Shown here piece after piece: positions 3,356 through 60,700 of a DNA stretch of 64,000 nucleotides. Every line of letters begins with the position of its first letter. Position 1 is the first letter of the stretch. The translations under genes were made by a program, and so were the position numbers. The notes under the pieces were generated by a model. That model was not told the origin of the DNA. It was given only the letters and a program-made list of their open reading frames with translations, and made no database searches. The DNA is from Evansella clarkii (GTDB lineage Bacteria; Bacillota; Bacilli; Bacillales; Salisediminibacteriaceae). The DNA is taken from NCBI RefSeq assembly GCF_002019695.1, contig NZ_KV917376.1:1691047-1755046 (forward strand). The letters are read 5' to 3'.

Positions 3356-3490
3356 CGAATTGCGAAAGCGTCTTGCATGCCCGCTTGCGGGAAAAAATAG
3401 AGTGAGCGGTAACGCAAGAGTGTCTTGCATGCCTGTTTAACAGAAAAAATAATATTAAGAGGTAACGCAAACAGTACAGAGGCACCCGGG
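3356..3490. repeat. Mini-array of the 52 bp repeat family (about 2.5 units)
   Basis: Equivalent GCCCGCTT/GCCTGTTT/CACCCGGG points fall at 3379, 3431 and about 3483, a spacing of 52. The unit core GCAAGAGTGTCTTGCAT (3414-3430) matches the cores of the large arrays at 33.4 and 45.5 kb. Confidence 0.8.
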
Positions 3491-3880: not shown

Positions 3881-3975
3881 TTCGCCGATAAACTATCCGA
3901 TTTCGCCGATAAAATTAAAATTTCGCCGATAAACCTCCCAATATCGCCGATAAAATCACTTTTTCGCCGATATAT
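3881..3975. repeat. Short tandem array, 20-21 bp period (TTCGCCGATAAA)
   Basis: Five copies of TCGCCGATA start at 3882, 3903, 3923, 3944 and 3964. The spacings are 21, 20, 21 and 20 bp, with variable bases between the conserved cores. Confidence 0.9.
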
Positions 3976-20507: not shown

Positions 20508-20650
20508 TATGAGGGTCTTGCATGCCCGAACTCGGGTATGAACCACGAGAAAGGCAACACTGGAGCATCCATCGTGCCCGAACTCCGTGGAAACTCCAGA
20601 GAAAGGCAACACTGGAGCATCCATCGTGCCCGAACTCAGGAAAAAGCTAA
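20508..20650. repeat. Mini-array of the 52 bp repeat family (3 units)
   Basis: GCCCGAACTC points fall at 20524, 20576 and 20628, exactly 52 bp apart. Units contain GAGAAAGGCAACACTGGAGC and match the first four units of the large array at 33.4 kb. The rest of this 501 bp gap (20651-20954) has nothing else recognisable. Confidence 0.85.
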
Positions 20651-20957
20651 GAGAAGGGTAATAACAAGAATAGTCCCGTGGATGCCCCTGACAATCCCGA
20701 ATGTTGATCTTCATAAAAAACCACTTTTCATAATCGAAAATCCCCTTTATAGAGACCATTACCCGAAAATTACAACCCTTCCAGAATAAAATAGCGGAAG
20801 ACAAATTAACCATACTTTAAGGAAATATCAGGAAATGCCCCGTTACAATTCGACGGGGAAAGTTCACCACTTTCGACACTTGAGAGAGTCCTTGTATTTT
20901 TACTAAAATTGGATAAAGTTAAAAGTTACAAATATTCTTAATTTTTGGAGGGGTTTG

Positions 20958-31845: not shown

Positions 31846-33345
31846 GTGAAATATGTAATCGGAGTAGACTTAGGAACAAGCGCGGTAAAGATCTTGCTTG
31901 TAAATCAGAACGGTGAAGTAACACAGGAAGTTTCAAAAGACTACCCGTTGATTCAGGAGAAAACCGGACACAGCGAACAAAAGCCGGAAGATTGGGTGAA
32001 TCAGACAGTTGCAGGACTGTCTGATCTCCTCAGGGATTTTGACGGAAGCCCGGAAGATATTGAAGGCATTAGTTTTTCCGGACAGATGCATGGGCTTGTA
32101 CTTCTCGATGAAAATAAGGAATCACTCCGTAATGCAATATTATGGAACGATACTCGTACAACCGCTGAGTGTGAAGAGATATATGAAGCAGTTGGCGAGG
32201 CTAAGCTTCTGGAGCTTACGAAGAATCCTGCACTGGAAGGATTCACTCTGCCAAAAATTCTCTGGGTGAAAAAGCATGAGCCGGAAATTTTTGAGAAGGC
32301 AAGCAGCTTTGTTTTACCAAAGGACTATGTTCGTCTGAAGCTGACTGGCCAGCTCCATATGGAATATTCAGATGCAGCAGGAACTTTGCTGCTGAATGTT
32401 GCTGAAAAGCAATGGAGCGCAGAAATTTGCGAGGTGTTTGGTTTAGATCGTGATTTTTGTCCGCCGCTCCTTGGCTCACATGAAGAGGTAGGTACTCTCC
32501 TTCCTGAGATTGCAGCTGAGACTGGGCTTTCTGCAAGTACACGTGTATTTGCAGGGGGAGCGGATAACGCATGTGGCGCCATTGGTTCCGGAATTCTTGA
32601 AGAAGGCAGAACATTGGCGAGCGTCGGAACTTCAGGAGTAGTACTATCATATGAATCGAGCGACGATAAAGATTTCCAGGGAACTGTGCATTATTTTAAC
32701 CACAGCTCACCGGATGCGTTTTATACGATGGGGGTAACCTTGTCAGCAGGGCACAGCCTGAGCTGGTTTAAAGAGGTTTTCGCTAAAGACGAGGACTTTA
32801 CAGAGCTGCTGGCTGATGTGGGTGCTGTGCCTCCAGGAGCGAACGGACTGTTGTTTACTCCATATCTCGTTGGAGAAAGGACTCCGCATGTGGACTCTGC
32901 TATCCGCGGAAGTTTCATTGGCATGGACAGTGGGCACAGACGAGCAGACTTTGTTCGTGCAGTTCTTGAAGGAATCACTTTCTCCCTGAATGAATCTGTG
33001 GAGATCTTCCGCAGGCATGGCAAGAAAATTGATACAGTGGTATCCATTGGCGGGGGCGCGAAAAATGAAGCCTGGCTGCAGATGCAGGCCGATATTTTTA
33101 ACGCTAAGATCGTCAAGCTTTCAAGTGAGCAGGGACCAGGCATGGGAGCGGCAATGCTCGCTGCATATGGCTGCGGCTGGTTTGACTCCCTGAAGGACTG
33201 TGCTGATTCATTCCTGAAAGTGGAAAAAGAATTCTTGCCGAAAGATGAGAATGTTGGTAAGTACTCAGAGCTTTTCGAGCTATATCAGAAGGTTTACACA
33301 CAAACGAAAGAATTGAACAAAGACCTCGTTAAATTCAGGAAATAA
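31846..33345 (+). CDS. xylB: Xylulokinase
   Basis: A 499-residue FGGY-family kinase phosphorylating D-xylulose. The N-terminal phosphate-binding motif is GVDLGTSAVKILL, and SFSGQMHGLVLLD and ILWNDTRT are xylulokinase-specific. The catalytic Asp is in FAGGADNACGAIGSG, and the ATP-site VSIGGGAKNEAWLQMQADIF is near the C-terminus. Start GTG 31846 with GCAGGAGTGG upstream. It follows xylA closely and ends at a strong terminator. Confidence 0.96.
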   Translation: MKYVIGVDLGTSAVKILLVNQNGEVTQEVSKDYPLIQEKTGHSEQKPEDWVNQTVAGLSDLLRDFDGSPEDIEGISFSGQMHGLVLLDENKESLRNAILWNDTRTTAECEEIYEAVGEAKLLELTKNPALEGFTLPKILWVKKHEPEIFEKASSFVLPKDYVRLKLTGQLHMEYSDAAGTLLLNVAEKQWSAEICEVFGLDRDFCPPLLGSHEEVGTLLPEIAAETGLSASTRVFAGGADNACGAIGSGILEEGRTLASVGTSGVVLSYESSDDKDFQGTVHYFNHSSPDAFYTMGVTLSAGHSLSWFKEVFAKDEDFTELLADVGAVPPGANGLLFTPYLVGERTPHVDSAIRGSFIGMDSGHRRADFVRAVLEGITFSLNESVEIFRRHGKKIDTVVSIGGGAKNEAWLQMQADIFNAKIVKLSSEQGPGMGAAMLAAYGCGWFDSLKDCADSFLKVEKEFLPKDENVGKYSELFELYQKVYTQTKELNKDLVKFRK

Positions 33346-33353
33346 TGCATCGA

Positions 33354-33392
33354 AGAGCACCAGCTGCTAAACAGGCTGGTGCTGTTTTTACA
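33354..33392 (+). terminator. Terminator of xylAB
   Basis: GCACCAGC/GCTGGTGC stem followed by TGTTTTTA. Confidence 0.85.
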
Positions 33393-33409
33393 GGAGGGGC
33401 GCTGGTCGA

Positions 33410-34425
33410 TTGATGCTCCAGCGTGCCCGAACTCTGGGGAAAAGTAGTGGAAAGGTAACGGGGGAGTGTCTCGCGTACCCGAACTTCGGGGAAACTCGGG
33501 AGAAAGGTAACGCTGGAGCGTCCATCATGCCCGAACTTCGGGGAAAGTCCATGAGAAAGGTAACGCTGGAGTGTCCATCATGCCCGAACTTCGGGGAAAC
33601 TCCGGGGAAAGGTAACGCAAGAGGGTCTCGCATACCCGCTTGAGATGAAAAACTGCCCAAGCGGTAACGCAAGAGGGTCTCGCATACCCGCTTGAGAGAA
33701 AAAATCGTCCAAGCGGTAACGCAAGAGGGTCTCGCATACCCGCTCGAGATGAAAAACTGCCCAAGCGGTAACGCAAGAGGGTCTCGCATACCCGCTTGAG
33801 AGAAAAAATCGTCCAAGCGGTAACGCAAGAGGGTCTCGCATGCCCGCTTGTGGGAAAAAACTTCCCAAGTGGTAACGCGAGACGCTCTCACATACCCGCT
33901 CGAGATGAAAAACTGCCCAAGCGGTAATGCAAGAGGGTCTCGCATACCCGCTTGAGAGAAAAAATCGTCCAAGCGGTAACACAAGAGGGTCTCGCATACC
34001 CGCTCGTGGGAAAAAACTTCCCAAGTGGTAACGCGAGACGCTCTCACATACCCGCTTGAGAGAAAAAATTGCTCAAGCGGTAACGCAAGAGGCTCTCGCA
34101 TACCCGCTTGAGAGAAAAAATCGTCCAAGCGGTAACACAAGAGGGTCTCGCATACCCGCTCGTGGGAAAAAACTTCCCAAGTGGTAACGCGAGACGCTCT
34201 CACATACCCGCTTGAGAGAAAAAATTGCTCAAGCGGTAACGCAAGAGTCTCTCGCATGCCCGCTTGAGAGAAAAAATCGTCCAAGCGATAACGCAAGACG
34301 TTCTCGCATACCCGCTTGAGAGAAAAAAACGTCCAAGCGGTAACGCAAGAGGGTCTCGCATACCCGCTCGAGATGAAAAACTGTCCAAGCGGTAACGCAA
34401 GAGTCTCTCGCATACCCAAAAGCAG
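33410..34425. repeat. Large tandem array, 52 bp period, 20 units
   Basis: The ACCCG/GCCCG landmark recurs at 33425, 33477, 33529, 33582, 33634 and then every 52 bp to 34414, with a single 53 bp step. The first four units carry CCCGAACTTCGGGG. The following ones carry CCCGCTTGAGAG..CCAAGCGGTAACGCAAGAGGGTCTCGCAT in pieces, and CCGCTTG can pair with CAAGCGG on either side. Several changes preserve pairing (for example CTTGTGGG with CCCAAG). Open frames through it are an effect of 3 x 52 periodicity and are not called as genes. Confidence 0.95.
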
Positions 34426-34429
34426 AAGC

Positions 34430-34540
34430 AATGCACGAAATGAGGAATCCAAAGTACGAAATCACGTTTCAATGAACACAAAGCAAGCACCAATGAACGA
34501 AACCAGCATCTCAATGAACGAATGCAGAAACAAAGCAATG
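34430..34540. repeat. Short tandem array, 20-21 bp period (AATGAACGAAA)
   Basis: AATGCAC, AAAGTAC, AATGAAC, AATGAAC and AATGAAC start at 34430, 34451, 34471, 34492 and 34513. The array directly follows the 52 bp array and precedes the aldo/keto reductase ribosome site. Confidence 0.8.
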
Positions 34541-34574: not shown

Positions 34575-35558
34575 ATGAAATACAACCAGCTTGGAAACAC
34601 AGACCTGAAGATCAGCGAACTAAGTTTTGGCACATGGGCTATTGGAGGAGCATGGGGTAAAACGGATGATGCAGAAGCGTTAAAAGGGCTTGACAGAGCT
34701 ATGGGCGAGGGAGTGAACTTCTTCGATACAGCTGACGTTTATGGTGACGGGCACAGTGAGAGGCTCCTTGCGAAAGCTGCGAAAGGAAAAGAGGATTCGA
34801 TCCATATTGCATCAAAATTCTGCCGTGCCGGTGACATACATGACCTTGCTACCTATTCAGAAGAAAGCGTCCGTAACTATTGTGAACAAAGCTTGCAGAG
34901 GCTTGAGCGTGAGGCCATTGACTTATATCAAATCCATTGCCCGCCTATGGAGGTCCTCCAGGATGGAAGAGTGTTTGAAGTTCTTGAAAAACTGAAGCAG
35001 GAAGGGAAAATTCGCTATTATGGAGTAAGTGTGGAAACTGTTGAGGAAGGATTATTCGTCCTCAAAAACACGAATGCGAGCTCTCTACAGGTAATATTTA
35101 ATCTTCTCCGCCAGAAACCTCTTGAAAAGCTTTTTCCTGAAGCAGTGGAAAAGAAGGCAGGCATTCTTGCAAGAGTGCCGCTGGCAAGCGGACTTCTGAC
35201 TGGTAAATTCACAAGGGATGTTAAATTTGAAGAAGATGACCATCGCAATTTTAACCGGGATGGCCAGGCATTCAACGTAGGGGAAACGTTCGGCGGCCTT
35301 GAGTTTAAAAAAGGCGTGGAACTCAGCAATGAAATTAGCTGGATTGCAGAAGGCAGAGGCAACATGACAAGGGCTGCATTAAAATGGATTATGCAGCAGA
35401 ACGGTGTGACTAGTGTAATTCCAGGGTTTAAGACAGTTAAACAGGCTGAAGACAATCTGGAGGCTGTTAATGTAAAAGGTTTCAGCCAGGAAGAGCAGGA
35501 GCGGCTGGCTAAGTTTTACAATGAGCAGGTTCACGAACACATCAGAGGTGCTTATTAA
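34575..35558 (+). CDS. Aldo/keto reductase
   Basis: A 327-residue NADPH-dependent (beta/alpha)8 reductase. The catalytic tetrad is visible as Asp in FFDTADVYGDG (with Tyr), Lys in HIASKF and His in YQIHCPP. The C-terminal cofactor loop is TSVIPGFKTVKQAEDNL. It is most like bacterial YqkF/YhdN-type reductases. Position between xylAB and galM suggests action on a pentose or its aldehyde products, but this is inference. The start has AAGGAGGAA upstream. A full terminator follows. Confidence 0.88.
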   Translation: MKYNQLGNTDLKISELSFGTWAIGGAWGKTDDAEALKGLDRAMGEGVNFFDTADVYGDGHSERLLAKAAKGKEDSIHIASKFCRAGDIHDLATYSEESVRNYCEQSLQRLEREAIDLYQIHCPPMEVLQDGRVFEVLEKLKQEGKIRYYGVSVETVEEGLFVLKNTNASSLQVIFNLLRQKPLEKLFPEAVEKKAGILARVPLASGLLTGKFTRDVKFEEDDHRNFNRDGQAFNVGETFGGLEFKKGVELSNEISWIAEGRGNMTRAALKWIMQQNGVTSVIPGFKTVKQAEDNLEAVNVKGFSQEEQERLAKFYNEQVHEHIRGAY

Positions 35559-45548: not shown

Positions 45549-46000
45549 GAGTTGACCTACCATTCAAGTAGTGCAAGGCCGCCTTGCATCCCTTGAAAGT
45601 GAGTTGACCTACCATTCAAGTAGTGCAAGGGCGTCTTGCATCCCTTGAAAGTGAGTTGATCGTCCACTCAAGTAGTGCAAGGGCGTCTTGCATCCCTTGA
45701 AAGTGAGTTGACCGTCCACTCAAGTAGTGCAAGAGCGTCTTGCATCCCTTGAAAGTGAGTTGATCGTCCACTCAAGTAGTGCAAGGGCGTCTTGCATCCC
45801 TTGAAAGTGAGTTGACCGTCCACTCAAGTAGTGCAAGAGCGTCTTGCATCCCTTGAAAGTGAGTTGACCGTCCACTCAAGTAGTGCAAGGGCGTCTTGCA
45901 TCCCTTGAAAGTGAGTTGATCGTCCACTCAAGTAGTGCAAGAGCGTCTTGCATCCCTTGAAAGTGAGTTGACCGTCCACTCAAGTAGTGCAAGAGCGTCC
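45549..46000. repeat. Tandem array, exact 52 bp period, 9 units
   Basis: GAGTTGA landmarks fall at 45549, 45601, 45653, 45705, 45757, 45809, 45861, 45913 and 45965 (52 bp each), the last unit cut off near 45999. Each unit has TCAAG/CTTGA and TGCAAG/CTTGCA nested inverted repeats around GCAAGAGCGTCTTGCAT. Units differ at only a few sites (GGG/GAG, ACC/ATC). Confidence 0.95.
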
Positions 46001-60182: not shown

Positions 60183-60224
60183 TTCCCAGTTAAATACTCT
60201 TTAATATTATAAAGGGGGGGGGGC

Positions 60225-60700
60225 GGTGAATCTGGACAAATATTGGCTCAACAAGCAAAATTTGTCCAGCAAACGGGAGAATCTGGACAAATCTTCTTCG
60301 AAAAGTGAAAATTTGTCCAGCAATGGCAGGTTAGACCGGTAATATAATGAAATGCAACCACATTAAGTTACATTTAAGGAATTTTATGTAAAAATAATCG
60401 ATAAATCAACGGTGAATCTGGACAAATATTGGCTCAACAAGCGAAATTTGTCCAGTAAACGGGAGAATCTGGACAAATCTTCTTCGAAAAGTGAAAATTT
60501 GTCCAGCAAAGGCAGGTTGGACCGGTAATTTATTGAAATGCAACCACAGTAAATTACATTTAAGGTATTTTATGTAAAAATAATCGATAAATCAACGGTG
60601 AATCTGGACAAATATTGGCTCAACAAGCGAAATTTGTCCAGTAAACGGGAGAATCTGGACAAATCTTCTTCGAAAAGTGAAAATTTGTCCAGAAAGGATG
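60225..60700. repeat. 186 bp tandem repeat (2.6 copies) made of paired ~51 bp hairpins
   Basis: GGTGAATCTGGACAAAT recurs at 60225, 60411 and 60597, exactly 186 bp apart. Each unit holds two TCTGGACAAAT..ATTTGTCCAG hairpins about 51 bp apart, then a spacer with GTTACATTTAAGG. The third copy is cut after its second hairpin. Confidence 0.92.

Follow-up and report, generated by a model that had tools for sequence, protein, structure and literature searches.

AIMS, KOPS, the SRS of SpoIIIE and Chi are short single motifs whose orientation follows the direction from origin to terminus on both chromosome arms. RTP/Ter of Bacillus and Tus/Ter comprise an asymmetric site of about 20–30 bp that is polar relative to the replication fork. 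The BOX elements of Streptococcus pneumoniae are intergenic and contain tandem internal modules able to pair; we know of no replication polarity in them. The accessible part of PMC2267715 describes bacterial stem-loop families, including Bhal-1 and Bcr1, as stem-loop repeats in bacilli. According to the accessible part of PMC2817692 and to PMC3733652, a GTAG or CGTC tag at the 5' end is a feature of REPs.

The window analyzed here, a stretch of 64,000 nucleotides from Evansella clarkii, contains an array of 52-bp units that belongs to a superfamily of non-coding arrays found in one bacterial order. These arrays exhibit the same polarity as AIMS, KOPS, SRS and Chi but consist of tandem 52-bp units with a dyad instead of short single motifs. 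Unlike RTP/Ter and Tus/Ter, they occur chromosome-wide, comprise up to 20 units or more and run with the normal fork on both arms. They differ from BOX elements in unit sizes, unit order and clade, and from the Bacillus stem-loop families covered in the accessible part of PMC2267715, which are 72–167 bp long; the main text of that paper does not use the word "tandem". REPs and BIMEs with RAYT are similar in that they are intergenic, palindromic and constant at the foot, and occur in tandem blocks and many copies; the complementary changes that characterize their palindromes are likewise observed in our arrays. In contrast to these elements, the arrays adopt a fixed 52-bp lattice, are replication-polar and do not always coexist with a RAYT match. 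They also lack the conserved 5' tag, with GGTMA...TRCCC as the constant foot, and their units stand head to tail in one orientation, whereas REPs alternate in orientation within BIMEs. Since none of the known kinds compared here combines all of these features, we regard the arrays as a new kind. No description of them was found in an open-access literature library, and the family is apparently undescribed.

The array between xylB and an aldo/keto-reductase-like gene

The array extends from 33417 to 34417 of the window. Upstream and co-oriented with it lies xylB, encoding xylulokinase (31846–33345, plus strand; TIGR01312, E 3.9e-190), followed by its intrinsic terminator, a hairpin with a T run (33357–33390, plus strand), and the array starts about 26 bp downstream of this terminator. 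The downstream gene (34575–35558, plus strand) is only aldo/keto-reductase-like, as every NCBIfam match of its protein falls under the respective cut-off (best E 1.7e-32). The array contains 20 T[AG]CCC landmarks, the first at 33424 and the last at 34413, not counting three additional matches to this motif within units. Eighteen of the 19 steps between landmarks are 52 bp and one, from 33528 to 33581, is 53 bp. Self-identity within the array is 0.78 at lag 52 and 0.80 at lag 156, while the best value for the whole window among lags 1–399 is 0.29. Tandem Repeats Finder divides the array into two subtypes on the plus strand: sub-array A2 (33417–33618), with four units of the CCCGAA...GGTAACG type (3.9 copies, period 52 with one step of 53), and sub-array A (33611–34417), with fifteen units of the CCCGCTYG...AGCGGTAACGCRAGA type (15.5 copies, period 52) and a higher-order period of 156. 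The landmarks, the lag identity and Tandem Repeats Finder thus bear out an earlier note on this DNA, which had described twenty units of two subtypes in a 52-bp register with a single 53-bp step, separating xylB from an aldo/keto reductase gene, and had proposed autocorrelation at lag 52 as a check. The whole unit recurs, with no constant repeats alternating with unrelated spacers, and the array is therefore not a CRISPR array. A degenerate 21-bp repeat of the CAATGAACGAAA type (34428–34530) immediately follows it on the 3' side.

Related sequences recur in the window and beyond. A short second type A array lies at 3370–3470 (L026) and a type A2 array of 2.6 copies at 20523–20655, both on the plus strand. 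The family B array at 45549–45999, also on the plus strand, shares the 52-bp period but has a different sequence without the core (8.7 copies). In the genome of the window, blastn matched the array at 31 places, so that it is no isolated local feature; within this genome (G000), 29 array clusters belonging to the family of the array and one related family were examined. Among 39 relatives, eight of them of the same genus, only G003 gave a match to the array. A consensus of 52 bp was derived from 311 units at 39 loci, with two dyad centers 26 bp apart; the Watson–Crick fraction is 0.52 at the dyad and at most 0.36 at other centers. The xylB locus of G003 (L077), a genome of the same genus, carries a near-identical terminator followed by an array of the same build, with approximately 6+6 units against 4+15 in G000, so that comparison of array length, a further check proposed in the earlier note, revealed a difference in copy number between orthologous arrays. 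By our reading of the alignments, 12 loci appear orthologous between the two genomes, with unit variants private to each array and changed copy numbers. No conserved boundaries of the mobile-element type were seen in this comparison. The array also had no match among 72,556 plasmid and 50,697 phage records, a set from which records near this genome were possibly excluded, and a plasmid or phage origin was rejected on this basis. Among 50 of the 55 listed flanking proteins in G000, no Pfam family was common to more than two, and a shared flanking gene family was likewise rejected.

Several other repeats were encountered in the same searches. A period-186 array at 60224–60697 of the window contains a 51-bp sub-unit formed around the inverted repeat CTGGACAAAT...ATTTGTCCAG, for which Tandem Repeats Finder reports a 51-bp period at 60414–60510, and a 185-bp array at L166 carries a motif resembling it. 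A 33-bp tandem element with the sequence TGCTCCTGCGGTTACTCGTCGCAAAAAGAGTTT or the complement of this is dispersed over several loci (L167 4267, L173 11826, L178 19598, L084 10382), in copies matching at 91–100%. At L059 (5228–5527), 42-bp GGCGCGATAA repeats and a short 52-bp array piece from the core family alternate, resembling a block duplication.

The earlier note also held that the spacing of the units is constrained more strongly than their sequence, and that frequent non-52 spacings in close relatives would count against this. In G000 and G003 together, 333 of the 354 steps of 41–63 bp (longer gaps being uncounted) are exactly 52 bp; 11 steps are 51 bp, eight are 53 bp, and one each is 45 and 46 bp. 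Comparison of nearest units differing by at most eight substitutions (955 substitutions in total) revealed a net length change in 20 of 264 cases, or in 25 of 291 when the substitution limit was lifted. The orthologous intergenic flanks of 12 locus pairs were divided into 50 windows of 52 columns, with 231 substitutions in total, and 21 of these windows differ in length. Expressed as odds, a net change in unit length is thus about nine-fold less likely than one in flanking intergenic DNA of comparable divergence (odds ratio 0.11 and P 9e-9 for the 264 comparisons). The contrast fails when every alignment gap event is counted, including pairs that cancel each other (0.090 versus 0.121 per substitution, P 0.09), so that the greater constraint on spacing is borne out in net length. 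In-register unequal recombination could also remove units of odd length.

The core dyad and its range

The units share a 27-bp core dyad, GGTNA-N17-TNNCC, exemplified by GGTAACG...CATACCC at 33611–33637 on the plus strand of the window; it recurs every 52 bp and is also found in other genomes of the order. The core ends are constant and slightly asymmetric, mostly GGTMA and TRCCC, and the arms vary among arrays yet remain self-complementary. When one core per array was compared across 74 arrays (including four chance matches, L245–L248), the covariation at pairs 7–21, 8–20, 9–19, 10–18 and 11–17 lay beyond all 2000 shuffles in each case, and that at pair 6–22 was matched by one of 2000, with shuffles that carry no correction for kinship. 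Over pairs 6–22 to 12–16, 57% are Watson–Crick in register, against at most 36% when the arms are slid by up to 4. The T·C mismatch beside the constant GG/CC is retained in 365 of 448 distinct cores. The compensatory pairing anticipated in the earlier note therefore holds for the 27-bp core dyad, as judged across many genomes. It does not hold for the CCGCTTG/CAAGCGG stem named there, which is nearly invariant in the subtype of the window and whose pair 9–27 covaries negatively (87 Watson–Crick pairs versus 126 expected).

On the array strand, G–T combinations number 36 and A–C combinations 45 (one core per array). Since G–T is not above A–C, folding of this strand as RNA or single-stranded DNA is not indicated. 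Folded as single-stranded DNA, the unit of the xylB array is unremarkable (z −1.6 and −2.5), as is the 29-nt core stretch (z −0.9 and −0.2). Among the 448 distinct cores, A–C exceeds G–T at pairs 6–22 (171 versus 32) and 9–19 (98 versus 14), mostly due to type A arrays; this excess would be compatible with G–U pairs on the minus strand.

Among named genome records, only Anaerobacillus arseniciselenatis (10 stretches) and Cerasibacillus terrae (one stretch) contain the exact pattern spanning the unit joint, in a search from which records of the window's own genome were possibly excluded. These stretches form 52-bp arrays in Anaerobacillus and a 51-bp array in Cerasibacillus, and a loosened pattern revealed that other genera have different arms between GGTAACG and CGTGCCC. 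The exact pattern finds nothing in G007, a genome of the same genus. Judged by this pattern, the presence of the arrays is patchy even inside one genus, indicating that their function is not essential. Several 52-bp arrays of Anaerobacillus have a common 3' tail, ATAAGGAACCYAACTAC, and a separate 51-bp array family of this genus is built on the inverted repeat ATTACTCTTCT...AGAAGAGTAAT (L125 2372, L128 4504, L133 328).

Array periods were surveyed in evenly placed stretches of G000 (400 kb) and G007 (400 kb), in the window, and in 160 kb of G146, where two of the eight surveyed stretches were picked because they bear arrays. Of the intergenic array periods above 21 bp, 52 bp is the most frequent in this survey, with eight entries in G000 (five in the window), ten in G007 and three in G146; the other intergenic periods are 21, 33 and 42 bp and longer. 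A helical quantization of the periods 21, 33, 42 and 52 bp was seen informally, with 33 bp fitting poorly. Twenty arrays have a consensus of 52 bases and 2.3 copies or more; 11 of them contain the pattern GGNNA-N17-TNNCC, against a mean of 0.2 and a maximum of 2 for shuffled units. Leaving aside the window and the two chosen stretches, six of 14 arrays carry it (G007 5/9, G146 1/1, G000 0/4). The nine arrays without the core include all four from the evenly placed G000 stretches, and the period-52 arrays are thus not shown to be one family.

Of the 397 genomes sampled from the order, 62 have matches to two consecutive units of the core (GGTNA-N17-TNNCC repeated after 52 bp); they represent 26 of 135 genera, with up to 236 matches per genome when symmetric cores are counted on both strands. 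At least six matches occur in 45 genomes, all exceeding the reversed control pattern, which is found in 15 genomes with at most five matches each. In 398 genomes of the phylum, more than one match was obtained only in G000 and G106, both belonging to the order; eight others have a single match, and the control gives one or two matches in nine genomes. Outside the order, core matches are therefore chance-level singles in this sample, and the arrays are restricted to the order in the samples searched. In L224 of G058, a symmetric core array has a Bacillaceae-1 RNA (1877–1943) about 300 bp away, surrounded by other dispersed repeats.

Array orientation and replication

The arrays are intergenic, frequently 3' of a terminator and seldom between divergent genes. 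Of 42 arrays in G000 (29) and G003 (13), two of which (L060 at 9203 and L065) are of the family B type, 22 lie in tandem gaps with the genes and three in tandem gaps against them, 15 between convergent genes, one between divergent genes and one in an unknown context. The upstream gene is co-oriented with the array in 38 of 42 cases and the downstream gene in 23 of 42. A terminator finder places a terminator ahead of the array at 18 loci; behind the array, it places one on the array strand at nine loci and on the other strand at 19. Arrays from other genomes, the majority belonging to different genera, have a co-oriented upstream gene in 31 of 33 cases and a co-oriented downstream gene in 19 of 35. 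All 42 arrays of these genomes are free of overlap with called ORFs; this number counts a single place twice, as L137 and L219, both lacking an upstream call, and also includes L130, a named record that probably contains the same array.

Array direction follows the replication fork. With the terminus placed from dnaA, 26 of the 29 arrays in G000 point along the fork; GC skew sets the terminus nearer 3.4 Mb, which makes L071 an extra exception and gives 25 of 29. All 13 arrays of G003 follow the fork, bringing the two genomes to 39 of 42. In G007, all 17 listed arrays do so, with six reverse matches lying outside the list, and the same holds for 15 of 15 arrays in G136 and 14 of 15 in G260, where the exception is near the terminus. 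The array strand in G007, G136 and G260 switches only near the origin and the terminus, with dnaA at the switch and GC skew in agreement. G092 (four arrays), in whose first 20 kb no dnaA was found, is outside this count. Pooled over the five genomes, 85 of 89 arrays point along the fork, an orientation skew on both arms like that of replication-polar motifs of the AIMS, KOPS and SRS type (P 5e-6 against a rate of 0.78); four are against it, or five with the skew-defined terminus. By our own ORF caller, 71–78% of ORFs are oriented along the fork (248 of 347 in the fetched G000 and G003 regions, 205 of 264 in the G007 samples).

Gene direction is neutral between convergent genes, and only convergent gaps therefore separate the fork from the genes cleanly. 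Here, 14 of 15 arrays point along the fork (P 0.001). In the three tandem gaps whose genes run against the fork, the arrays at L051 and L079 follow the fork and that at L063 follows the genes. Accordingly, the cause of array orientation appears to be replication, and the co-orientation with the upstream gene can be accounted for by fork orientation together with the avoidance of divergent gaps.

Other repeat families were scored similarly. Family B loci of at least 300 bp and at least 76% identity follow the fork in seven of seven cases in G000 and nine of ten in G003, and its clusters defined by motif do so in five of six; weaker matches (64–75% identity) are on mixed strands. Clusters of the core motif are along the fork in 33 of 33 cases. 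The same is true of all nine clusters of the 21-bp CAATGAACGAAA repeat, so that the polarity may stem from a general process. A 33-bp family is along the fork in two of five cases. A tandem TTCGCCGATAAA family of 20/21 or 41/42 bp (3881–3972 of the window, L055, L067, L079 and L082) exhibits no replication polarity (2/5).

Possible roles and origins of the arrays

Since the arrays nearly always point in the direction in which the DNA is copied, they suggest a signal to something moving along the chromosome. We tentatively favor, with somewhat less than even confidence, a replication-polar lattice of asymmetric dyads that operates at the DNA level and is probably read by a machine running from origin to terminus. 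The arrays would act as duplex DNA, and the 52-bp unit, corresponding to approximately five turns of B-DNA, would present the same helix face to a protein at each unit. Such a protein may read the asymmetric dyad itself, or hairpins or cruciforms extruded from it, and the tandem lattice could then serve as a polar signal or barrier for the replisome, an SMC complex or a DNA pump of the FtsK/SpoIIIE type. Unequal recombination would homogenize the units within each array while the sites stay fixed between the two species. The asymmetry of the dyad, with GGTMA on the left and GGGYA on the other strand at the right, suffices to convey direction; in some arrays the core is symmetric (GGTNA/TNACC, for example L231 and L223) and can carry no polarity. 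The freely changing arms also count against this lattice reading, because a sequence-specific duplex-binding protein would not need them, and the flanking proteins yielded no candidate partner. A narrower version, which we consider possible but rather doubtful, is that the unit sequence drifts while the dyad geometry, the period and the origin-to-terminus direction are selected, making the arrays helically phased road signs or one-way barriers for a traveling machine.

The main rival to the lattice is a REP/BIME-like origin, which we judge unlikely, though well short of negligible. The 27-bp dyad would be a single-strand hairpin handled by a Y1 transposase (RAYT or IS200/IS605-like), and tandem units would arise by circle replication or recombination. 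Y1 enzymes of these types act on single-stranded DNA of the lagging-strand template, so that new copies would insert in one fork orientation. Covarying arms, a constant foot and intergenic tandem blocks resemble REPs and BIMEs as presented in the accessible part of PMC2817692. Matches to the RAYT model NF047646 (E ≤ 0.001) are enriched in genomes with core matches, occurring in 53 of 62 against 195 of 335 others (odds ratio 4.2, P 2.6e-5, uncorrected for kinship). In opposition to this, nine core-match genomes contain no such match, which speaks against RAYT as an obligatory partner: G238 with 161 core matches, G177 (80% complete) with 99, G106 with 90, G212 with 47, G147 with 34, and four others with one to four. 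Only 82 of the 397 genomes pass the NF047646 cut-off. Moreover, the units carry no GTAG or CGTC tag and all run in the same direction, G–T is not favored over A–C on the array strand, and the common 52-bp length of unlike sequences is left unexplained. The twelve loci common to G000 and G003 further indicate that array movement is slow.

A functionless satellite is a comparably weak candidate. Here, 52-mers would persist and expand only in the replication-stable orientation and otherwise drift. On this view, the 52-bp period would go back to a single ancestral array and would have been preserved by the need of recombination for register. The private unit variants of each array, the varying copy number of orthologous arrays (as at the xylB locus), the patchy occurrence and the lack of conserved ends between G000 and G003 are all in line with a satellite. 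Against it, the core ends persist in arrays that are otherwise unlike, and the 52-bp period is retained in nearly all steps. The arms also stay complementary while the T·C mismatch is kept, whereas correction by template switching would erase the mismatch.

The pairing stem in the earlier note had implied an RNA reading, in which transcripts reading through from the upstream gene, or a transcript of the minus strand, carry a chain of hairpins. We consider this improbable. The strong co-orientation with the upstream gene, and the much weaker one with the downstream gene, would suit it, as would the A–C excess at pairs 6–22 and 9–19, which would be G–U on the minus strand. However, the co-orientation is accounted for by fork direction and the avoidance of divergent gaps, fork orientation is maintained even between convergent genes, and the array strand shows no wobble signal. 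At the 18 loci with a terminator between gene and array, the array lies outside the transcript. Rfam gave no match at the gathering score in the window; in eight loci searched at E up to 1, it gave eight matches, three above the gathering score, all outside the core arrays.

A coding repeat is hardly credible. A minus-strand frame of 354 codons (33388–34452) spans the whole xylB array, since type A units lack stop triplets in this direction. Of the 34 arrays in G000 and G003 that measure 300 bp or more, 12 are open over at least 90% of their length, all antisense, but the other 22 are not, which refutes coding for most arrays; in addition, 52 is not divisible by 3.

Should the arrays turn out to be made by a RAYT, they would instead belong with REP elements. 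If the narrower lattice reading is true, their logic would resemble that of the oriented boundary sites of loop extrusion. Bacterial tandem arrays are often taken as typing markers or junk; those described here form a family identifiable chiefly by its geometry, which in five genomes is stricter than the genes in following the direction of replication. They offer a concrete, testable case of a directional DNA signal, in which natural inversions, gains and losses of arrays can be used to ask what on the chromosome senses direction.
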